Source: Bacteroidia bacterium
Lineage (GTDB): Bacteria > Bacteroidota > Bacteroidia > SpSt-205
DNA length: 59,844 bases
Direction: 5' to 3'
Assembly: GCA_026413325.1 (NCBI GenBank)
Contig: JANZYW010000005.1
Coordinates: 1-59,844, forward strand
Shown one piece after another: positions 38,585 through 50,027 of the stretch; position 1 is the stretch's first letter; each line of letters begins with the position of its first letter. The notes under the pieces were generated by a model. That model had not been told where the DNA came from and did not search any database. It saw only the letters and a program-made list of their open reading frames with translations. The position numbers and the translations under genes are program-made.

Positions 38585-39367
38585 ATGGCAGGTAAGACTT
38601 TATCGGCATGGAGTACTTCTGGAGAGAAACCAGAAGTATTGTATTGGGTCGGCTGTGCTGGCAGTTTTGACGACCGAGCTCAGCGAGTCGCGCGTGCTTT
38701 CGTGAAACTACTGGATGCTGCCGGAGTTCGATGGGGGATCCTCGGCACAGAAGAAACCTGTACCGGTGACCCAGCCAAGAGGGCGGGAAACGATTTTCTT
38801 TACCAAATGTTGGCTCTTCAGAATATACAGACTCTTCAAGCATATGAGATCAAAGAAATCGTGGCGACTTGCCCGCACTGCTTCAATACGTTGAAGAATG
38901 AATATCCATTACTGGGGGGAACCTTTCGGGTTTGGCACCATAGCCAGTACCTTATCCAGCTGATAGAGAAAAAGAGGTTACCCCTCCCCGCTGGAATGGA
39001 AGAGATAGTCACGGTTTTTCATGACCCCTGTTATCTCGGGAGAGGCAATGGTGAATATGAGGCTCCCCGAGAGCTGCTACGACGTGTAGGTATCCGCCTC
39101 CGTGAGCCAGAGCGAAGCCGGGATTTTGCGCTGTGCTGCGGAGCTGGTGGAGCACAAATGTTCAAGGAACCCGAGCCCGGCCGTCAAGATATCAACATCG
39201 AGCGCACGGAAGAGCTTTTACGGCTATCTCCCCATCGGATAGCGGTGGGTTGCCCTTTTTGTATGACCATGATCACAGACGGCGTAAAGCATGCGGGGAA
39301 ACAGAATGAAGTGCAGGTCCAGGATTTGGCAGAGATCTTAGCAGAACGGTTAGGCCTCGTTTCATAG
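38585..39367 (+). CDS. CCG-domain Fe-S protein (HdrB/LldE/GlpC-like)
   Basis: 260 residues with two CCG-type cysteine-rich domains. The first runs from VGCAGSFDDR through TCTGDPAKR to ATCPHC. The second has HDPCYLGR, LCCGAGGAQMF and GCPFCMTM. Such domains bind a 4Fe-4S or non-cubane cluster and carry redox catalysis in heterodisulfide reductase B, lactate and glycerol-3-phosphate dehydrogenases. It is soluble and would dock on the membrane protein of the preceding gene. The substrate is unknown. It ends 6 nt inside the convergent propeller gene. Confidence 0.88.
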   Translation: MAGKTLSAWSTSGEKPEVLYWVGCAGSFDDRAQRVARAFVKLLDAAGVRWGILGTEETCTGDPAKRAGNDFLYQMLALQNIQTLQAYEIKEIVATCPHCFNTLKNEYPLLGGTFRVWHHSQYLIQLIEKKRLPLPAGMEEIVTVFHDPCYLGRGNGEYEAPRELLRRVGIRLREPERSRDFALCCGAGGAQMFKEPEPGRQDINIERTEELLRLSPHRIAVGCPFCMTMITDGVKHAGKQNEVQVQDLAEILAERLGLVS

Positions 39368-40729
39368 TCGAACGAGTCTGGCGAAGAAGCTTTGCCCTTC
39401 CTTGTCGTATAGGTGGATCAGGTAAGTTCCTCTTTCTGAGGGTAGGGGGATAGGATATCGATGTCCAGGGGCGAGCTGTATGCTCTCCTCCCAATATATG
39501 CGTCCCGAGAGGTCGACGATTCGGATCCGCCCATCTGTTATGGGGGCGAGAGCGAGCACGCTATACTCTCCGGGGGAAGTGGAAAGAAGCCGCAGAGGGG
39601 CCTCTTTCTCAGACAGGGGGAGGGAGGAGGAGCTCGAGAAAACAGCTATACGCGCCAGACTTACTCCTCCGCTGCCATCTTGGGTAAAGTTTCCGCCTGC
39701 GTATAGGGTGTTGACGTGCCAGGCAAGCGCGTTTACGACGGTAGGGCCCAGCCCATTTCCGAAAGAGCTCCAGGAACCCGAAGAAGAGAGTTTGGCTATC
39801 CGATTGACGGTCATACCATTTCCGAGGGCAGAAAAGCTGCCTGCTACATAGAGGTCTGTTCCAGTCGCCAGCAGGGCACGTACACTTCCAGAGGTAGGAG
39901 CGCCTGGCACGCTTTGTGCTTGGATCCCGTCGAAAGCCACCAGCTTCCCAGAGGCGGTACCAAAGGTTGTGAAGTCTCCCCCGAGGTAAAGTTTGTTATT
40001 CCACACCACCGCTGCCCAAATGTTATTGTTGGGACCTTGACCTGCTGGGTAGGCTGCTTCCAACCGTTGAAGCGATTTGTTCCAGATAGCCAGATAGGCC
40101 TTATCCGTTTCATTATAGTAGGCAGCGACGAAGCTACCAGCTACGTATAACTTATTTTGAAAGACGATGAAAGCCCGAGGGACGCCACCCATGAGTAACT
40201 GGGAGGTATTGTTGGGGTCCGGTGCCAGCCACTGAGAGCCATTCCATCGAGCGAAGAAGGCGATCGGCTGCGGTGGGTTTCCCACTTGTGTAAATCCACC
40301 CCCCACCAGTAGTTCTCCTTGATATACGGCGAGTGCATAGACGGGGCCGGAAACCCCTCCTCCAACCGCGCTCCAGGTATTAGAGACGGGGTCGTAGGCT
40401 GCTAAGTTTTGGGCGGAACTATTTCCTATGCCGCTAAATTCTCCCCCTACAATGAGCTTGCCTTGGTATTCTGTGATAGCGTACACATGTCCGGTGCCCC
40501 CAGCCCCTTGTCCAGGTCCTACTCGCTGCCACCCTTGGGCACCAAGGTAGCGGGCGATGCCATTGGTTTGGAGAGCGGTGCCGCCAGCGTATTGGAAGCG
40601 GCCTCCTACGTACAGGGCTCCTTGCCAAGAGTAGAGAACTTCTACTGTCCCGTCTACCCCACCAGCGACATTTTGCCACGTCTGAGCGAGTGTAGTACTT
40701 GAAACTATCCACAGCAAGGCTTTTCGCAT
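39362..40729 (-). CDS. exported kelch/propeller-like protein with C-terminal T9SS sorting domain
   Basis: 455 residues. A short signal peptide (about 1-15, ending LAQ) is followed by about seven repeats of the form LYVGGRF / LIVGGEF / LLVGGGF / LYVAGSF / LYLGGDF / LYVAGSF / LYAGGNF (about 30-375), each with a W-containing strand, a propeller of the DUF5122/kelch kind. A C-terminal beta domain (about 380-455, ending YLIHLYDKEGQSFFARLVRL) looks like a T9SS type A sorting domain. It is likely a surface protein. A near-consensus -7 box (TACCTTTA) ends 4 nt before the ATG. Confidence 0.82.
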   Translation of the reverse strand: MRKALLWIVSSTTLAQTWQNVAGGVDGTVEVLYSWQGALYVGGRFQYAGGTALQTNGIARYLGAQGWQRVGPGQGAGGTGHVYAITEYQGKLIVGGEFSGIGNSSAQNLAAYDPVSNTWSAVGGGVSGPVYALAVYQGELLVGGGFTQVGNPPQPIAFFARWNGSQWLAPDPNNTSQLLMGGVPRAFIVFQNKLYVAGSFVAAYYNETDKAYLAIWNKSLQRLEAAYPAGQGPNNNIWAAVVWNNKLYLGGDFTTFGTASGKLVAFDGIQAQSVPGAPTSGSVRALLATGTDLYVAGSFSALGNGMTVNRIAKLSSSGSWSSFGNGLGPTVVNALAWHVNTLYAGGNFTQDGSGGVSLARIAVFSSSSSLPLSEKEAPLRLLSTSPGEYSVLALAPITDGRIRIVDLSGRIYWEESIQLAPGHRYPIPLPSERGTYLIHLYDKEGQSFFARLVRL

Positions 40730-40928: not shown

Positions 40929-43900
40929 TTAGATAAGCTTGGTCCATTTCCATAGGCGTTCATTGAGGTAGGGGTCCCAAGCATACAGTCGCACGGCGTA
41001 ATGGTACACTCCAGCATCTGTGATTAGTAGCTCTCCTCTATACAGATTGGGTTCGATGAGGGGGAGAGCGAAAGCGACGGGCTTCCCTTGAGGAGTTTCA
41101 AAGACGACTTCTACTCGCAGAGCTTCTGGTGGGAGGCCTGGGTTTTCGACAGCTACCTCGACCTCGAAGGGTTGGTTCACGGGATAGGCTCTCTCTGAGA
41201 AGGGGGGGATACGTACGGCCTTAATCTCGATTTGGGGCCAATACCTCTGGATATGCTGTAAGAGAAGGGTACGCTGTTTTTGTACTTCTCCTGTCAGCTG
41301 GCGGGCCCGCTCCCATAGGGGAAGGTAGAGGGAATTTTCATAGGCCGTGAGCATGCGCGTAAGGGAAAAACGCTCGCTAACGAATCGTTGAGCTTTCTCC
41401 ATCCGCGCGATCCATTCTGGGGGTAGTCCTCTCGCATCTCGTGTGAGATACGTGGGGAGCACTTCTCCTTGTAGAAGATAGGTAAGCTGGACGGCTTCCC
41501 AAGCGTCTCGGATAGAGGGGTCCTGGCTATCGCAGGTAGGGATGGTCCAGCCGCCTGCTTCTTCCGCTGGTACTTCAGCCCACCAGCCATCGGGGATACT
41601 CAGATGGAGTACGCCGTTTAGGCTTGCTTTCATGCCACTGGTACCGCTCGCTTCCTGACCATAGACGGGTAGGTTAAGCCATACGTCAGATCCTTGGACC
41701 AGGTAGCGGGCCAGCTGCATATCATAGTCAGGTACGAATAGCACCCGACCCTTGTAGGGGGGGGTTAGGCTTTTTCTCCAGAGGGTGCGCAGGGCAGATT
41801 TGCCCGCTTCATCTTGAGGATGGGCTTTTCCTGCGATGATAAGGCGCACCGGCTGAGAGGAAAGCAAGTCGGCTAATCCTTCATATTCGAATAGAAGGAG
41901 GTGCCGTTTGTATGTGGCAACACGACGAGCAAAAGTCAATAGGAGGGTATTCTCATCTGTGGAGGCAAGGAATGCCTGCAAGGATTCTAAGTAAGCTACT
42001 GGCCAGGGCCTTCGGCTAAGGCGTCTTCTCAGATAGGAGAGCAGTTGATTTTTCAGGGTCTGGTGGGTTTCCCAGCTTCGTTTGGACCGGCTCCATTCAC
42101 TTGCTTGCCAAGTGGCGACGTGGACCCCATTCGTGATACCGTGGATGGGTAATTCGGGGGGCAAATATCCTGGATAGAGAGGGGAGAACATTTCTCGTGA
42201 GACCTGGGCATGGAGTTGGCTGACCGCATTGGTGCGGGCAGAGAAGTGAAGGGCCAGAGCGGTGAGAGAAAACTTGCCAGGCTCTCCTGGCATTTCTCCC
42301 CACTGGAGAAATTCTTCCCATCGCAGGCCGAGCTCGTGGGCGATGACGGGACCTATGTATCTCCTGAGCAGGTCAGGAGGGAATGCATCGTGGCCTGCGG
42401 GTACGGGAGTATGGGTGGTAAAGAGAGTCTGAGCCCGTACTCGTTCCTGAGCTTCTTCGAGAGAGAGTCCTTCTCGTCGGAGCTGAAGTAGATGTGCCAC
42501 GATATGGAAGGCGGGATGTCCTTCGTTGTAATGAAAGATATCGATGGGTACTTGTAAGGCTTCTATTAAAGCTTGGGTTCCAAATCCTAAGATGAGCTCT
42601 TGCTGGAGGCGCCTTTCGCTGTCTCCTGTGTACAGCTGAGCGGTGATGGCCCGCATTTCGGGAGGATTCTCCGAGAGATCCGCGTCGAGGAGATAGAGGG
42701 GTATTCGGCCTACGTGTACTTGCCATACTTTGAGGTAGAGGGTTTGGTCGGCGAGGAGGAGCCTCAGGCGGAGCCATCGGCCATCCGCTTCTCGAACAGG
42801 TTCTACAGGAAGGTCCGTAAAGCGCAGGGGGGGAGTCTCTGCGATTTGTTCTCCCTCTGCGTCTATTTGCTGGAGGAAGTAGCCCTTTCTATAAAGAAGG
42901 CCCACCGCAAGGAGAGGGTATCCTTGATCACTGGCTTCCTTGAGGTAGTCCCCCGCCAAAACACCTAACCCTCCAGAATAAAAGGGTAAGCATCGGGTAA
43001 GTCCGTATTCCATGCACAGGTATGCTACTCGAGGGACGTCTGTACGGAGGGGCTGGGCCATGTAGGTCTGGAATCGTTGGGATACCTGTCGAAGGGAGCG
43101 CAAGAATTCTTCGTTTTCGCTGAGGAGCTTCCACTGGTGGGTAGGGAGGTGATTAAGGAGCCAGACGGGATTCTCATGGAGCTCCCAATCCGAAGGTGAA
43201 AGAGAAGCAAAGAGATGCTGAGCGTCTGGGTTCCACGTCCACCAAAGGTTGTAAGCGAGATGTCGGAGAGGACGTAGGAGGTCTGGGAGAGCAGGTAGGA
43301 AGAAGGCTCTATGCCACTGAAATGAGCGCTTTTCTGTAGGAGTAGGAGGGGTTAGCCGATACCAGAGCCGGGCTTGGGCTTTTGTGCGGGCGATTTGATA
43401 AGCTTGCTGGTAAAAGGGTAGGAAGTGATGCCAGCGAGTTTTCTCAGAGAGACGGAGTGCTTCCTGCCGAAGAAGCTCTTTTTGGGCTAAGCTGCTTCGT
43501 AGGCGACGATAGAGCCAGGTAAGAATCTGGCCTGGTGGGTCGGGGGCCGTGTAATCTATGAGAGAGAGTGCTTCTGAGAGCGGACTCACGTGGGTCTGCA
43601 TCCAGGTGCCGAAGCCTGCTTGTCGGGAAGAGAGGGTGGGAACCCCCATACCCAGGCTTTCTTGAGGGGTATAGCCCCAGGGCTCATACCGAGAGGGAAA
43701 GGCCGAGGCATCGGTGGCAGCAAGCAGTGCATAGTACGGTAGATTCACTACTCCGTCGCTACCCTCCAGATAGACGGGGAGGTAGGCAATGCGAATGGGG
43801 TCAGAAGGGGCTATAGATAATGCCCTTAAGTGCGAGAGAAGGGGGTCTTGCTCAGGGTGGAGGAGAATGTGACTTACCCAAAGAGGAGAATCTGGGGCCT

Positions 43901-44912
43901 TTCCTGGCCCGTCGCTGTCTGACGGGAGAGCGAAGAGGACATGAAGTTGGATGTCAGAGAGAGGCTGCTCTCGGTATCGGCTTAGCGCATGAAGGAGAGG
44001 TAGAGTTCCTTTGTTTTCCAGTTCGGGGCGACCCGCATGGATAAGCCAAAAGGAGGGGGATTCTGTCTGCCACTGTTTGCTCAGCCACGTTAGCCATTCT
44101 TGGGCTTTCTCGACAGGGAGCATGCCTGGGGGGTTCCAGCCGTTGGGAGTGATTACATCAGCTGGGCGTCCCAGGTAGTGCGCTGCTTCTCTACTCACGT
44201 GTTCACTTACAGTCGTGGTAGCATCTGCATGTTGCCAGGCAGCTCTCTCGAGGCTATGCTTACTGGTAAGATGGTGGAGCCGAAGCCAGTTCTCTACTTC
44301 CGCAAAAGGTATCAGCTCTCCTCCCGCAGCCCTCCCTGCCACAGTAGCATGGGTGGTAAAAAGAGTAGTTATGGTCGGGGCATGTGCTTGTAGATACAAT
44401 ACCCCGGCTCCTGTAAGCCATTCATGGAAGTGGGCTACCGCGTCTACTTCTCCATAATAAAAAGTACAGAAACTGGTGATAACTTCCCCCGCCGCATAGC
44501 CAAATATGGCTGGCTCTACGTAATCCCACCCCCCGTGGAGCGAGTCTACCCGAAATTTCTCCCAGAGCTCCGCAAAAATCTCATTTCTACGGGGTAGAGC
44601 AGGGTAAAAATCCACTAATAGGGTCCGGATTCGTTGTCCCTCCACATGCCAGTAGCCTGCGTAGACCCTATATCCGCGCTCTCGGAAAAAGTATTCTCGC
44701 CAGTCAGCAAATAAGGTAGGAGCTTCTTCCCATTCTCGGGTACTATGGGGGAGATGAGGCCCTATAAGGAGATAAGCCCCTCCCCATTGCTGAGCTAAAA
44801 GAGGAGCCTTGCCCACTAATACTGTGTGAATACCACCGACTTTGTTAGCTACTTCCCAGCTGGCTTCAAAAAGAAGCGTTGCCCGAAGACCTGAGGTGGG
44901 GAGGTCCTGCAC
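40929..44912 (-). CDS. glycogen synthase - alpha-glucan phosphorylase fusion
   Basis: 1327-residue bifunctional-looking enzyme of glycogen metabolism. The N-terminal GT-B domain (about 1-525) is glycogen-synthase-like: FEASWEVANKVGGIHTV at the start and SRYEPWGYTPQESLGMG at the nucleotide-sugar end. The rest is a GT35 alpha-glucan phosphorylase of the DUF3417 type, with CMEYGLTRCLPFYSGGLG, THTPVPAGHDAF and the pyridoxal-phosphate lysine in GTSGMKASLNG. One chain could thus both extend and phosphorolyse glucan. An in-frame TTG at 44927 lies upstream of the -7 box, so the GTG at 44912 with spacing 4 is preferred. It is divergent from the first PorE-like gene. Confidence 0.9.
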   Translation of the reverse strand: MQDLPTSGLRATLLFEASWEVANKVGGIHTVLVGKAPLLAQQWGGAYLLIGPHLPHSTREWEEAPTLFADWREYFFRERGYRVYAGYWHVEGQRIRTLLVDFYPALPRRNEIFAELWEKFRVDSLHGGWDYVEPAIFGYAAGEVITSFCTFYYGEVDAVAHFHEWLTGAGVLYLQAHAPTITTLFTTHATVAGRAAGGELIPFAEVENWLRLHHLTSKHSLERAAWQHADATTTVSEHVSREAAHYLGRPADVITPNGWNPPGMLPVEKAQEWLTWLSKQWQTESPSFWLIHAGRPELENKGTLPLLHALSRYREQPLSDIQLHVLFALPSDSDGPGKAPDSPLWVSHILLHPEQDPLLSHLRALSIAPSDPIRIAYLPVYLEGSDGVVNLPYYALLAATDASAFPSRYEPWGYTPQESLGMGVPTLSSRQAGFGTWMQTHVSPLSEALSLIDYTAPDPPGQILTWLYRRLRSSLAQKELLRQEALRLSEKTRWHHFLPFYQQAYQIARTKAQARLWYRLTPPTPTEKRSFQWHRAFFLPALPDLLRPLRHLAYNLWWTWNPDAQHLFASLSPSDWELHENPVWLLNHLPTHQWKLLSENEEFLRSLRQVSQRFQTYMAQPLRTDVPRVAYLCMEYGLTRCLPFYSGGLGVLAGDYLKEASDQGYPLLAVGLLYRKGYFLQQIDAEGEQIAETPPLRFTDLPVEPVREADGRWLRLRLLLADQTLYLKVWQVHVGRIPLYLLDADLSENPPEMRAITAQLYTGDSERRLQQELILGFGTQALIEALQVPIDIFHYNEGHPAFHIVAHLLQLRREGLSLEEAQERVRAQTLFTTHTPVPAGHDAFPPDLLRRYIGPVIAHELGLRWEEFLQWGEMPGEPGKFSLTALALHFSARTNAVSQLHAQVSREMFSPLYPGYLPPELPIHGITNGVHVATWQASEWSRSKRSWETHQTLKNQLLSYLRRRLSRRPWPVAYLESLQAFLASTDENTLLLTFARRVATYKRHLLLFEYEGLADLLSSQPVRLIIAGKAHPQDEAGKSALRTLWRKSLTPPYKGRVLFVPDYDMQLARYLVQGSDVWLNLPVYGQEASGTSGMKASLNGVLHLSIPDGWWAEVPAEEAGGWTIPTCDSQDPSIRDAWEAVQLTYLLQGEVLPTYLTRDARGLPPEWIARMEKAQRFVSERFSLTRMLTAYENSLYLPLWERARQLTGEVQKQRTLLLQHIQRYWPQIEIKAVRIPPFSERAYPVNQPFEVEVAVENPGLPPEALRVEVVFETPQGKPVAFALPLIEPNLYRGELLITDAGVYHYAVRLYAWDPYLNERLWKWTKLI

Positions 44913-44916
44913 AAAG

Positions 44917-44924
44917 CAAAAGTA
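44917..44924 (-). promoter_or_regulatory. -7 box of the glycogen fusion gene
   Basis: Minus-strand TACTTTTG is a perfect TAnnTTTG. CTTT follows, then the GTG at 44912 (spacing 4). Confidence 0.65.
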
Positions 44925-45042
44925 CAATGGTATTTGTCGGTCTTGCGGTTCCCTTTAGGAAGAAGAAGGTTCTTAGTTCTAGGTATTAGCGGTTGGAGGG
45001 ACCGTTCCCGATTCGATTTACTATACAAGCACTTTCACATGA

Positions 45043-45050
45043 TATTTTTG
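45043..45050 (+). promoter_or_regulatory. -7 box of the first PorE-like gene
   Basis: TATTTTTG is a perfect TAnnTTTG. TGGGG follows, then the ATG at 45056 (spacing 5). Confidence 0.75.
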
Positions 45051-45055
45051 TGGGG

Positions 45056-46942
45056 ATGCGAAGGGTATTTGTCTTCCTTTTGTGGCAATCCCCGTGGGTA
45101 TTTTTTTTCTTTCTCTCCCCTCTGTGGGGGCAGACTCGTCTCCTGCGAAACGTAGAGCGGTTGTATTATCGGGGGGACTACATTTCCTTGGTTCAGCAGG
45201 ATCTGCCCTCTCCTGTACAGAAGCCTACTATCCTGCTGTATTATGCAAGTGCCTACTATCATCTCGGAGAAAGGGACAAGGCGTATGCCCTTTACAGAGA
45301 AGCTTTCTCTAAGCTGAGCCCCGCTGAAATAGAACATCCCTTTCTTACAGAATACGGGCAGCTGTGTTTGTACAATGAGAATCCCTCTCTCGCGCTGGAG
45401 CTCTTCAATCAAGCTCTGCAGCGTACTGCCTACGCCGATTCACAAGCGCTTTTGAGCAAGTACATAGCGTATGCTAATCAGCTCAAGAACTATCAGGAAA
45501 TCCCTCCTGAGAAGTTTAGGTGGGTAGTTTATCCTCTTTCCTACTTGAATACTCCCGAGCATGAGTATTCCCTTTTTGTACACAAAGGGTATATATACTT
45601 CATATCGCGTCGAGACGAGGCTCGTGGTACGGACCCAGAAGACTTTCTTCCGCATGAAGCGCTATACCGGGCGAAAAGAGAGGATACAGTGGTTCAGCCG
45701 TTGCGTTTTTTCTCTAAGAAACATGAGGGCATAGCAGGTTTCCTAAAGGATACCCTCATTGTGTATCGCTCTGCCCATCGGAGGGGGGACTTTTACATCG
45801 CCTATCCTCGGGGAGAGGGGTGGGCTCAACCCCAGCGATGGAAAGCCTTTCCCAATAGCAGGAGGGGAAGCGAAGATGCCCTCTGTGAAGATCCCAAAAC
45901 GGGGGATATTATTTTTAGCTCTGACAGGAAAGGTACAAAGGGGGGAGATGACTTGTGGCTAACGCGCCGCCTCCCGGGAGGGAAGTTTGCTCCTCCCGAG
46001 AATCTGTCTGCTCTCAACACGCCATACAATGAAGATGCTCCGTTTATAGTGGGGGATACTTTGTACTTCGCGCACGATGGTCCCACCAGTATAGGAGGGT
46101 ATGATATTTTTTACAGCGTTCGACAAGAGAGAGGGGGGTGGGGGAAGCCTCAGCGGCTTCCTCGGCCTTTCAATAGCCCTGGCCATGATAGCTACTTGTT
46201 TTTTCCCCATCCTGATTCGGTTTATCTCTCCTCCGATAGGACGGGAGGGAAAGGGAAGATGGACTTATACCTTCTCGTACGAGAGCCTCTCCCCCCTTCC
46301 TCACCTCCAGAAACACTCCCTCGACAGTACACTCTCAGCGGGAGGATATATGATCGAGAGACAAAACGTCCCGTCCCAGCTCTTGTCATTCTGAGGCCCG
46401 TATCAGATACGTTGCTTTCTCTTTCCTCCTGGGAAGCCGAAGCGGATGGGAGTTTTTCTCGGCCCAAACCGCTGAGAGGGCAGTACTTACTTCATGTATG
46501 TGCGGAAGGATATGCCCAATACCTAGAACCTTTCTTTTCTCCCGATACGGGCGATGTGTGGCGTGAGATCCCGATGATTCCAGCAGAAGTACTTAATAAT
46601 GTACAACTGCCTCGGTTACATTTTGACTTCGATCGACATACCCTTCGAGCTGAGGCTCCTCCTGCTTTGGATACTGTGATACAGGTTCTTCGGCAATATC
46701 CTACCCTCATCCTACAAGTCTCTGGGCATACAGACAGCATTGGTACCCGAGAATACAACCAGGGATTGTCTGAGAGAAGAGCCCGAACTGTATACAACTA
46801 CTTGATGGAAAAAAACATCGCTCCTCATCGATTGCAGTGGATTGGCTACGGAGAAGACCGTCCGCTTGTTCCTAATACTTCTCCCTACAATCGCTTTCTC
46901 AATCGACGCGTTGAGTTCATTCCGCTTACAGGTCGACCTTAG
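45056..46942 (+). CDS. PorE-like TPR / propeller / OmpA-family protein (first copy)
   Basis: 628 residues with the domain order of PorE, the T9SS component that binds peptidoglycan. A signal peptide (about 1-26) is followed by TPR helices (about 30-140) and a PD40/WD40-like propeller (about 155-400). The propeller has the repeats IIFSSDRKGTKGGDDLW, NTPYNEDAPFIVGDTLYF and VYLSSDRTGGKGKMDLY. A carboxypeptidase-regulatory-like beta domain (about 420-500) and an OmpA C-terminal domain (about 515-625) follow, the last with HFDFDRHTLR, SGHTDSIG and LSERRARTVYNYL. The Asp and Arg that bind diaminopimelate are present. It is followed after 40 nt by a paralogue. The ATG is set by the -7 box. Confidence 0.88.
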   Translation: MRRVFVFLLWQSPWVFFFFLSPLWGQTRLLRNVERLYYRGDYISLVQQDLPSPVQKPTILLYYASAYYHLGERDKAYALYREAFSKLSPAEIEHPFLTEYGQLCLYNENPSLALELFNQALQRTAYADSQALLSKYIAYANQLKNYQEIPPEKFRWVVYPLSYLNTPEHEYSLFVHKGYIYFISRRDEARGTDPEDFLPHEALYRAKREDTVVQPLRFFSKKHEGIAGFLKDTLIVYRSAHRRGDFYIAYPRGEGWAQPQRWKAFPNSRRGSEDALCEDPKTGDIIFSSDRKGTKGGDDLWLTRRLPGGKFAPPENLSALNTPYNEDAPFIVGDTLYFAHDGPTSIGGYDIFYSVRQERGGWGKPQRLPRPFNSPGHDSYLFFPHPDSVYLSSDRTGGKGKMDLYLLVREPLPPSSPPETLPRQYTLSGRIYDRETKRPVPALVILRPVSDTLLSLSSWEAEADGSFSRPKPLRGQYLLHVCAEGYAQYLEPFFSPDTGDVWREIPMIPAEVLNNVQLPRLHFDFDRHTLRAEAPPALDTVIQVLRQYPTLILQVSGHTDSIGTREYNQGLSERRARTVYNYLMEKNIAPHRLQWIGYGEDRPLVPNTSPYNRFLNRRVEFIPLTGRP

Positions 46943-46966
46943 AACTTTTGGATTAGGAAATTTCAC

Positions 46967-46974
46967 TACCTTTG
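46967..46974 (+). promoter_or_regulatory. -7 box of the second PorE-like gene
   Basis: TACCTTTG, a perfect TAnnTTTG, ends 8 nt before the ATG at 46983. It allows the second copy to be expressed apart from the first. Confidence 0.6.
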
Positions 46975-46982
46975 CCGAGGCC

Positions 46983-48890
46983 ATGGTCTGGAAGGTCTTT
47001 ATCGGAGCGTTCCTAGGTTTCGGTTGTGTCTGGGCACAGACCAAGTTACCTACGCTTCGTCGCTTAGAAAGGCTAAGCGAGCTGGGTTTCTATGAGAAGA
47101 TTATCGCGGCGTATGAGGCGCAGCCCCATGCATTTTCGGCGGACAGGCTACTTTTTGTAGCAGATGCATATCTTCAGTTGGGGCGTTCTCACGAGGCTTT
47201 TCATCTATATAAGCAGTCTGTCCATGATGGAAGCATGCGGTGGGACCCAAAACATATTTTAGCCTATGCGCAGCTTCTCCATGCCAGAGGGGATGTAGCG
47301 CGTGCAGCTCATTATTACAAGCTCTATGCAGAGCGGGCGAAAGATCCCATCGCCGCTTCTCTGGGGCTTTCTCAGTTGGCAAATTATCAATCGCTCCCAC
47401 AGAATAACAACTGGACAGTAGAGGGAGTTATGGAGCTAAATGCTTGGCTTCCTGTATATGCGGCGTGGTGGACAGGGGCTGAGCTATATGCGACTTCTCG
47501 GGCTCCTGTGGACGAAAAAGCCCCCACAGACCGTATGGGTCGGCCGTACGAACGCATAGTTCCTCGTACTCCCACCCGATATAAGTATCACCAATCCGTG
47601 GTGGGGTCTCTTGGTGCTGACACACTGCTTCTCTATCTCTCCCGTGGGAAAGGAAATATCTACATGAGTGCCGCCACTGCTTCGGGGTGGAGCAAACCTC
47701 AAAAATGGCGCAGAGTCCCTCTCCGCCCCCAAGGCAGAGTGAGCATCGCCATCGACCCGAAGACTCAGGATATATATTTTACACAAGACCCAGGGCTGCA
47801 TCGAGGTGCTGGCCGAGACTTGTATCGATTTCGGTATTTAGGAGGAGGGAAGTATAGTACAGCTGAGCGTTTACCCGCTCCTATCAATACACCATATGAT
47901 GAAGACGCCCCATTTATTGTAGGGGATACACTATACTTTGCTTCAAACGGCTTACAAAGTGCGGGAGGATATGACATTTTTTATGCGATTCGGAGTGGTG
48001 AACGCGAGTGGAGTAGTCCCCAGCCGATGCCAGCTCCGATTAATTCCTGGGCGAATGACATTTATTTCTATCCCTTTTCTCCGGAACATATCTATTTCTC
48101 TTCGGATCGGGAAGGAGCCTTTCGGGTATATCGAGCGAGATATACTCCGCCGCCACCACCGCCTCCGCCAGCTCCCATCGCTTCCACTGAAACGACACCC
48201 GCACCGGTTCCTGCACGTCCTGCATTGAGGGGCCAGCTCCTCCATCGTGATACCAAAAAGGGACTCAATGGAGAAGTTATCCTCGTGGACTCCGCTTCCC
48301 AGAAAGAGGTAACAGGTATCCAGACTTCTTTGGGGGGCTATTTTAGACTTTATCCACCAGAGGGAGGGGGGGTATATTACTTGTATGCGCAGGCTCCCGG
48401 TTTTATGACGCACGTGCAAGTCCTGCGGATTCCTCCTGAGCCGACCGTAGAGATGCCTCCCTTAGAAGTATCCCTGGCTCCTATAGAGATGGAAGCCACC
48501 TTTGCTCTCCGGAATATCTATTTCGACTTCAATAGCGATAAGCTCAAGCCCGAGTCTATTCCTGAGTTGAATCGGCTGAAGCGACTGCTCCAGGAAAATC
48601 CCAATGTACGTATTCGCTTCTCGGGGCATACTGATAACATTGGCGGGGACAAATACAATCAGCAACTCTCAGAGCGTCGAGCCCGGGCCGTCTATAAGTG
48701 GCTCCGAGAGCAAGGAGTACATCCTATCCAGATGGAATATATCGGCTATGGAAAGAGCCGGCCCATCGCTTCAAATACGACGGAGGAGGGGCGGTCCCTC
48801 AATCGAAGAATAGAAATGGAGGTGGTAGGAATCAGGACCCCTCCTTTGGGGACTGCAGCGAAGGAGAGCAAGCCCCTTCAGAGCGATTAG
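46983..48890 (+). CDS. PorE-like TPR / propeller / OmpA-family protein (second copy)
   Basis: 635 residues with the same order as its neighbour: signal peptide (about 1-19, ending VWAQ), TPR (about 22-140), propeller (about 170-385) with NTPYDEDAPFIVGDTLYF, a Pro-rich linker beginning near 387 (eight consecutive Pro), a regulatory-like beta domain (about 413-490) and OmpA C-terminus (about 510-620) with YFDFNSDKL, SGHTDNIGG and LSERRARAVYKWL. It could be the peptidoglycan anchor of T9SS or a specialised copy. A Cys at 15 is not in a good lipobox. The Pro linker is the main difference from the first copy. Confidence 0.88.
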   Translation: MVWKVFIGAFLGFGCVWAQTKLPTLRRLERLSELGFYEKIIAAYEAQPHAFSADRLLFVADAYLQLGRSHEAFHLYKQSVHDGSMRWDPKHILAYAQLLHARGDVARAAHYYKLYAERAKDPIAASLGLSQLANYQSLPQNNNWTVEGVMELNAWLPVYAAWWTGAELYATSRAPVDEKAPTDRMGRPYERIVPRTPTRYKYHQSVVGSLGADTLLLYLSRGKGNIYMSAATASGWSKPQKWRRVPLRPQGRVSIAIDPKTQDIYFTQDPGLHRGAGRDLYRFRYLGGGKYSTAERLPAPINTPYDEDAPFIVGDTLYFASNGLQSAGGYDIFYAIRSGEREWSSPQPMPAPINSWANDIYFYPFSPEHIYFSSDREGAFRVYRARYTPPPPPPPPAPIASTETTPAPVPARPALRGQLLHRDTKKGLNGEVILVDSASQKEVTGIQTSLGGYFRLYPPEGGGVYYLYAQAPGFMTHVQVLRIPPEPTVEMPPLEVSLAPIEMEATFALRNIYFDFNSDKLKPESIPELNRLKRLLQENPNVRIRFSGHTDNIGGDKYNQQLSERRARAVYKWLREQGVHPIQMEYIGYGKSRPIASNTTEEGRSLNRRIEMEVVGIRTPPLGTAAKESKPLQSD

Positions 48891-48896
48891 TACACC

Positions 48897-48904
48897 TATT
48901 TTTG
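48897..48904 (+). promoter_or_regulatory. -7 box of the S2P-like protease gene
   Basis: TATTTTTG is a perfect TAnnTTTG. CATA follows, then the ATG at 48909 (spacing 4). It sits within the 18 nt after the PorE-like stop. Confidence 0.75.
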
Positions 48905-48908
48905 CATA

Positions 48909-50027
48909 ATGTCTCGATTCACTTGGCATGTCGCCACTGTTGGAGGCATACCTATTTATATTCACTGGAGCTTTTGGCTTCTTTTCATCTGGATAGCCAT
49001 AAGCAGTTTTTTCTCCCCCGATTTTAGCTGGGCTTTCTTAATGTGGCGTTTGTTGCTTTTAGGAGGCTTAGTCTTGAGTGTAATCCTACACGAGCTGGGG
49101 CATGCATTTGCTGCTCGAGCTTTCCATATTCCTACTCGGGATATTACTATGTATCCTTTCGGAGGTGTAGCATCTCTGATTCGCATACCAGAGAAGCCCC
49201 TTCAGGAGCTGATAGTTGCTTTAGCGGGCCCTGCTGTCAACGTCCTTCTGGTGGGTCTTTTCGGAGGTATAATATGGCTGAGCTATCCTGCCTTTACCCT
49301 TTCTCTCGAGTTTTTAGCCTATAGGGGGGACTCTCTCCCCTCAGTAGAAGTGTGGTTATATAGTCTGGCTTTTATGAATGGGGTTTTGGCTGCTTTCAAT
49401 CTGATGCCTGCCTTCCCGATGGATGGAGGAAGGGTTTTGCGTGCATTACTGGCTACACGCCTCTCTTACATACAGGCTACACGTATAGCAGCTTTGGTGG
49501 GGCAGGGTTTCGCCATACTTTTTATCTTGATAGGTGTCTACGGAAACCCTGTGCTCATCCTTGTAGGTTTCTTTGTATTCGTAGCGGCCAGTCAAGAGCG
49601 TCAATATGCGGAGCAGCGCTCTGCCATGCAGGGGTATACAGTAATGGATGCGGTTATGAAAGATTTCCCGGTTCTCTCTGTAAGTCAAACCCTGCACGAG
49701 GCGATCCGTGCCTTGCTTGGCTCTCAGGCACGGTCTTTTCTAGTTGTAGATCCGCTGGGTCAGCCAGCGGGGAGTCTTTCACGGGAGCAAATAATCGAAG
49801 CCTTGAACGAAGGGAAATCCTCCACTACCTCTCTGGTGCAGGTGATGGACCCCGGCCTCTTGACTGTTCCTCCTTCTCTGCCCCTACATGAGGGCTTCCG
49901 AATGCTTCAGGAATCCCATAAGCCGTTTCTTGTCGTGACCCAGAACGGGCATGTAATAGGTATTGTAGACTCAGAAAATATCGCAGAGTTTCTCTTGGTG
50001 AGTCAGGCGATTTCCTCCACTCGATAG
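48909..50027 (+). CDS. site-2 protease (M50) family metalloprotease with CBS domains
   Basis: 372 residues. The membrane core has about six helices, the zinc site HELGH (61-65) and the NLMPAFPMDGGRVLRA segment (near 165-180) that supplies the Asp ligand, as in SpoIVFB-type S2P proteases. Two CBS repeats (about 245-365) form a regulatory tail, probably sensing adenine nucleotides. The substrate is unknown. A hairpin with a T-run follows 28 nt after the stop. Confidence 0.92.
   Translation: MSRFTWHVATVGGIPIYIHWSFWLLFIWIAISSFFSPDFSWAFLMWRLLLLGGLVLSVILHELGHAFAARAFHIPTRDITMYPFGGVASLIRIPEKPLQELIVALAGPAVNVLLVGLFGGIIWLSYPAFTLSLEFLAYRGDSLPSVEVWLYSLAFMNGVLAAFNLMPAFPMDGGRVLRALLATRLSYIQATRIAALVGQGFAILFILIGVYGNPVLILVGFFVFVAASQERQYAEQRSAMQGYTVMDAVMKDFPVLSVSQTLHEAIRALLGSQARSFLVVDPLGQPAGSLSREQIIEALNEGKSSTTSLVQVMDPGLLTVPPSLPLHEGFRMLQESHKPFLVVTQNGHVIGIVDSENIAEFLLVSQAISSTR

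Follow-up and report, generated by a model that had tools for sequence, protein, structure and literature searches.

A window of 59 844 nt, contig JANZYW010000005.1 of a Bacteroidia bacterium (assembly GCA_026413325.1), was analysed; coordinates are positions in this window. Two genes, here called A and B, lie in it head to tail with a gap of 40 nt and encode proteins that resemble PorE (PG1058), a component of the type IX secretion system (T9SS) of Porphyromonas gingivalis. Open reading frame (ORF) checks, Pfam searches and AlphaFold models confirmed the preliminary description of an adjacent pair with the common order TPR, PD40 propeller, regulatory-like domain and OmpA domain (Table 1). The Pfam order was alike in both proteins (TPR, PD40, CarboxypepD_reg, OmpA), with CarboxypepD_reg below the gathering score in each, and the models (mean predicted local distance difference test, pLDDT, 86.9 for A and 79.8 for B) showed helices at the N-terminus, followed by a propeller, a beta sandwich and an OmpA fold. 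Foldseek searches with both models gave almost only OmpA domains among the best 50 matches and did not place the propeller. A and B were aligned with 32% identity over 631 columns (E 2e-85), which excludes a chance likeness, and both belong to the PD40-OmpA PorE-like superfamily by their PD40 propeller, OmpA_C domain and full-length homology.

Table 1. Features of the A/B locus (positions in the 59 844-nt window).
Feature	Position	Strand	Basis and remarks
Gene A: TPR-PD40 propeller-regulatory-like-OmpA protein, 628 aa, signal peptide without lipobox	45056..46942	+	ORF (ATG 45056, stop 46942), Pfam, AlphaFold
A: TPR helices, model residues 42-145	45179..45490	+	Pfam, AlphaFold
A: beta propeller, model residues 154-411	45515..46288	+	Pfam, AlphaFold
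A: regulatory-like beta sandwich, model residues 426-507	46331..46576	+	Pfam, AlphaFold
A: OmpA_C-like domain with D/N/R peptidoglycan-binding residues (GHTDSIGTREYNQGLSERRA)	46610..46924	+	Pfam, ortholog comparison, Foldseek
Gene B: same architecture as A, 635 aa, signal peptide without lipobox	46983..48890	+	ORF (ATG 46983, stop 48890), Pfam, AlphaFold
B: TPR-like helices, model residues 25-136	47055..47390	+	Pfam, AlphaFold
B: beta propeller, model residues 144-387	47412..48143	+	Pfam, AlphaFold
B: eight-proline run, linker between propeller and regulatory-like domain	48147..48170	+	Translation
B: regulatory-like domain, model residues 415-483	48225..48431	+	Pfam, AlphaFold
B: OmpA_C-like domain with D/N/R peptidoglycan-binding residues (GHTDNIGGDKYNQQLSERRA)	48510..48824	+	Pfam, PDB match, ortholog comparison
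-7 box TATTTTTG, 5 nt before the ATG of A	45043..45050	+	Motif search
-7 box TACCTTTG, 8 nt before the ATG of B	46968..46975	+	Motif search
-7 box TATTTTTG of the M50 gene	48897..48904	+	Motif search
Next gene: M50 peptidase with CBS domains	48909..50027	+	Pfam; own -7 box; adjoins A or B in 5/11 genus genomes

With A as query, a search of the entire genome (2.19 Mb in 135 contigs, 99% complete) gave 11 further matches, two of them pieces of one gene. Seven proteins of the genome combine PD40 and OmpA, namely A, B and the copies on contigs C22, C80, C61, C41 and C60, which are named below by contig; TPR was detected by Pfam in A, B, C22, C80 and C61 and not in C41 or C60. With the PorE model of NCBIfam (NF052230), the genome search gave 380 bits for C22, 310 for C80, 203 for C41, 183+132 for C61 (two pieces), 153 for A (one piece), 151 for C60 and 100+66 for B (two pieces); on these sequence scores, A and B are among the poorest PorE matches of the genome. 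Scored as whole proteins, A and B reached 164.7 and 179.8 bits with NF052230 (cut-off 600) and 200.9 and 180.7 bits with NF053607 (CHU_0125; cut-off 620). The NF052230 cut-off was reached by 0/118 and 2/392 genomes of the phylum, so a score below it is weak evidence against A and B as PorE, and the NCBIfam cut-off was dropped as a PorE criterion for them; the CHU_0125 cut-off was passed by 14/392.

The two proteins from the 392 genomes that scored above the NF052230 cut-off (1116 and 995 bits) were used as PorE anchors, and a like search of the same genomes supplied six CHU_0125 anchors. A quick tree of 83 rows was made from 88 matches after removal of four OmpA proteins without PD40 and one truncated A (from genome G011, of the sister genus); a careful tree of 67 rows resulted when 22 rows were taken out and the six CHU_0125 anchors added. 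In the 67-row tree the A clade (10 rows) and the B clade (7 rows) were each supported at 100/100 and were sisters at 100/99. The PorE anchors, the CHU_0125 anchors and C22 formed one clade (100/99), and the copies linked to queE, including C80, formed a separate one. The same groups were found in the 83-row tree, and in neither tree did A or B fall within the clade of the PorE anchors. A single clade of A, B and PorE (22 rows) was rejected by the approximately unbiased (AU) test (p-AU 0.0088).

The PorE-like gene on C80 stands directly after queE (L027 5098-7640), as pg1058 stands after pg1057 in P. gingivalis. A queE gene adjoined a PorE-like gene in 13/80 sequences searched, and in that search it was found in the fetched flanks of neither PorE anchor. 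Synteny with queE was tried as a marker of PorE and rejected, the queE-linked copies forming a clade apart from the PorE anchors. Synteny and sequence thus point to different genes, and it is on sequence alone that C22, and not A or B, is named the closest PorE relative in this genome.

Searches of the PDB gave 6TOP (PorE) as the best match of the PorE anchor L181 (143.9 bits) and as the best OmpA-domain match of C22 (92.4 bits; an engineered TPR protein ranked higher through the TPR region). For C80 (75.2 bits), A (65.5 bits) and B (67.6 bits) it was one among many similar matches, and A and B matched other OmpA domains as well as or better than 6TOP. On chain B of 6TOP, the alignment covered only residues 15-103 for A and 15-102 for B, against 16-149 for L181; the alpha-helical OmpA insert of 6TOP, which L181 carries, was not found in A and B. 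Counterparts of Asp576, Asn584 and Arg591, the peptidoglycan-binding residues of PorE (PMC7192894), were present in 17/17 A/B orthologues. A pattern search of the first 70 residues found no lipobox in any of these 17, whereas the signal of both PorE anchors ends in a lipobox-like Cys, and five of the six CHU_0125 N-termini read show such a Cys.

Among the 11 genomes of the genus, A was found in ten, B in seven and both in six. The two genes are adjacent in five of these six and about 16.6 kb apart in G008; B alone occurs in G009 (83% complete), A alone in G002, G003, G005 and G007 (92-98% complete), and a partial A in G011. This distribution, with the partial A, dates the duplication to the origin of the genus or earlier, and the absence of B from several genomes indicates that B is dispensable or has been lost repeatedly. 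Matches to A at E <=1e-20 were obtained in every one of 31 genomes (this genome and 30 relatives; 2 to 20 matches each). Of the seven paralogues, A and B change fastest: between G000 and G006, identity was 62% for A, 67% for B, 69% for C80, 77% for C60, 80% for C61, 83% for C41 and 90% for C22.

Several features singled out in the preliminary description proved to be more widespread. The motif NTPY.EDAPFIVGDTLYF is indeed present in both proteins, but it lies near the family consensus across 18 homologues, most of them only 22-34% identical to A, and so does not mark a recent pair. The eight-proline run, described as a linker added in the second copy, is real in B, but proline runs vary among orthologues of both genes (runs of 5-8 in 4/10 A orthologues; runs of at least four absent from 3/7 B orthologues). 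Likewise, B does have a -7 box, but so do A and all 17 A/B orthologues.

Components of a T9SS are encoded elsewhere in the genome. A porP-K-L-M-N cluster lies on contig C47 (PorN/GldN at 57.2 bits, below its cut-off of 85.9; the others above), SprA is present as two pieces on two contigs, and the PorP-family genes comprise two strong ones, on C47 and C58, and a weak one on C52. Neither porPKLMN, further PorP-family genes nor SprA were found near A and B, and no porP was found at the A/B locus or among the A/B neighbours examined in relatives. The PorP-family gene on C58 (L032 4924-9175) is flanked by one gene for a GldJ/GldK-like lipoprotein and one for an OmpA protein that lacks PD40; this gene set is possibly an alternative shuttle-anchor set. 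The neighbours of A and B vary among relatives, and only a protease gene of the M50-CBS type (5/11 genomes; directly after B in four and, where B is missing, after A in one) and a TonB-dependent receptor gene (3/11) recur. The receptor gene diverges from A or B (L071 10983-13196, L073 6154-8562, L074 5475-7694), the Pfam analysis covering the L071 and L074 copies only.

A and B are probably the products of an old, family-restricted tandem duplication of non-lipidated periplasmic wall tethers of the PorE family, distinct from the closest PorE relative of the genome. This interpretation builds on the observed architecture, paralogy and tree position, the kept peptidoglycan-binding residues, the missing lipobox, the patchy retention of B and the missing porP neighbour; the periplasmic location, the binding of peptidoglycan and the role as tethers are proposed from them. 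A duplication at or before the base of the genus would have given rise to A and B, each of which would be exported by its Sec signal peptide. The OmpA_C domain may then bind peptidoglycan by its meso-diaminopimelic acid (meso-DAP) stem peptide, and a partner at the outer membrane may be held by the TPR and propeller domains. Candidate partners are an unlinked shuttle of the PorP/SprF type, as proposed for PorE homologues of Flavobacterium johnsoniae, or another outer-membrane protein.

Some results weigh against this interpretation. A clade of A and B with the whole PorE/CHU_0125/C22 group (33 rows) was not rejected by the AU test (p-AU 0.19), so the separation of the pair from PorE, broadly taken, is uncertain, and the stems of A and B are long (about 0.9 changes per column each), whereby their placement could carry long-branch error. 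The F. johnsoniae PorE homologues also lack a lipobox (PMC7192894), which leaves room for a T9SS role. Finally, an A or B missing from a draft genome could be an assembly gap, the genome without A being 83% complete and the four without B 92-98%.

The same four domains and peptidoglycan residues would also be expected if A and B were duplicate T9SS PorE subunits and each fastened a PorP/SprF shuttle of its own, with type B cargo, to the wall. The genome, with its two strong and one weak PorP-family genes, porPKLMN cluster and SprA, would accommodate them, and in five operons of F. johnsoniae a PorE homologue is encoded together with a type B substrate and an SprF-like shuttle (PMC12618676). 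We consider this unlikely: C22 is closer to PorE, A, B and PorE as one clade were rejected, porP is missing from the locus and from the neighbours examined in relatives, and seven PorE-like proteins stand against two or three PorP. The preliminary description was thus right as to superfamily and domain order, but its two PorE anchors were supported neither by the tree nor by the AU test, and the genome holds better PorE candidates. The phylogeny that it had named as a check placed A and B both away from PorE, yet within a related, not an unrelated, propeller-OmpA group.

A tentative alternative is that A and B are general envelope-integrity tethers of the Pal/CHU_0125 type, independent of secretion. 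A scores higher as CHU_0125 than as PorE and B about equally, the neighbours vary with no T9SS gene among those tested, and deletion of chu_0125 in Cytophaga impaired outer-membrane integrity (PMC5891637). Both CHU_0125 scores are, however, far under the cut-off, and the CHU_0125 anchors, most with a lipobox-like Cys, fall with PorE and not with A and B; an identity between species of 58-67% for A and B, against 83-90% for C22, is unlike that of a housekeeping tether. If A and B were tethers or sensors paired with an envelope protein encoded next to them, for example the site-2-type protease (M50-CBS) or the TonB-dependent receptors, the two recurring neighbours would be accounted for. Such a pairing is improbable in view of the other neighbourhoods tested, in which the genes are either unrelated housekeeping ones (tRNA synthetase, DNA polymerase I, NAD kinase) or a block common to two genomes only, and of the -7 box that the M50 gene has for itself.

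The -7 boxes were analysed further. In A, B and the M50 gene, TAnnTTTG precedes the ATG by 4-8 nt, and all 17 A/B orthologues carry it at 5-8 nt from a start. It was found 3-8 nt before an in-frame ATG or GTG in 14/44 long ORFs of the window (13/44 under a slightly stricter rule), in 25/75 ORFs of other stretches of the genome and in 38/108 ORFs of genus neighbourhoods, against 0/58 and 0/28 in other class members; permuted octamers gave 0-2 in every set. Fifteen further 20-kb stretches of G006 (L213-L227) had the box in 55/210 ORFs with a peak at 4 nt, compared with 3/75 ORFs in five other class members, although the G+C contents (0.38 versus 0.55 in G006) are a difference to bear in mind. 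G011, of the same family, gave 4/10 and G012, of another family of the order, 1/19. In F. psychrophilum the box occupies positions -12 to -5 relative to the transcript start, and leaderless transcripts make up 5.5% of the mapped mRNAs (PMC9723704); with that spacing, a gap of 4 nt would place the transcript start at the AUG. A TTG at -33 was not enriched (11/95 start-codon boxes versus 34/267 other boxes), which counts against a full promoter, and the box might therefore be a translation signal. We lean slightly towards a lineage-wide layout, in this family of Bacteroidia, in which a quarter to a third of long ORFs have a TAnnTTTG sigma box at about 4 nt from the start codon and their mRNAs carry little or no leader. 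On this view A and B would be separate, almost leaderless transcription units and, as a fast-evolving pair of wall tethers, would be free to diverge in expression and partner. A genome-wide prediction reported leaderless genes for 1/37 Bacteroidetes/Chlorobi genomes (PMC3160421), and no report of such a layout was found in the accessible portions of the literature on leaderless genes in Bacteroidetes/Bacteroidota (including PMC9723704, PMC5397173 and PMC3160421). If confirmed, this degree of leaderless expression would be unusual for Bacteroidota.

Upstream of A, a single ORF of 1332 aa (40929-44927) combines a glycogen-synthase-like N-terminal part with an alpha-glucan phosphorylase. A type A C-terminal domain (CTD) had been suggested by eye for the window gene at 39362-40729, and no secretion tail was returned for it by NCBIfam or Pfam. 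Other OmpA-tailed proteins, whose N-terminal parts differ from those of A and B, are encoded at L031 14081-16576 (FG-GAP repeats, Pfam), L031 5171-7165 (NHL-like by eye) and L033 3747-6299.

That T9SS models contain one PorE, as had been assumed, is true of P. gingivalis, but many homologues per genome have been published: 2 to 13 PG1058 homologues in some species (Heath 2016, PMC5053529), and fourteen in Tannerella forsythia and more than 20 in F. johnsoniae (Trinh 2020, PMC7192894). Multi-copy PorE homologues are already published, and what is added here is the tandem origin as sister clades and the missing porP neighbour. The pair contributes a family-restricted, fast-evolving duplicate to a multi-copy group with few assigned partners, and it cautions against calling every TPR-PD40-OmpA protein PorE, the closest PorE relative here being another gene.

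Within the genome, C22, C80, C61, C41 and C60 belong to the same PD40-OmpA family as A and B; C22 differs in being closest to PorE by sequence, C80 in its queE-porE order as in P. gingivalis, and C41 and C60 in having no Pfam TPR. CHU_0125 of Cytophaga hutchinsonii, linked to outer-membrane integrity (PMC5891637), is similar in length and architecture and is the best NCBIfam match of A, but it groups with PorE, and A and B reach 201 and 181 bits against its 620-bit cut-off. PorE of P. gingivalis, for which a complex with PorP and PG1035 has been shown (PMC9143113), has the four-domain order and the three peptidoglycan-binding residues in common with A and B; it is a lipoprotein with an alpha-helical OmpA insert and a T9SS component, whereas A and B have neither lipobox nor insert and belong to another clade. 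Several F. johnsoniae PorE homologues, unlike A and B, have genes for a PorP/SprF-like shuttle and a type B substrate as neighbours, and static anchoring by homologues encoded with SprF-like shuttles has been proposed (PMC12618676). For the F. johnsoniae homologues, signal peptides are given for all but one and no lipoprotein is predicted (PMC7192894); members such as Fjoh_3950 resemble A and B in being multi-copy, in having a signal peptide without lipobox and in keeping the peptidoglycan residues (PMC7192894).

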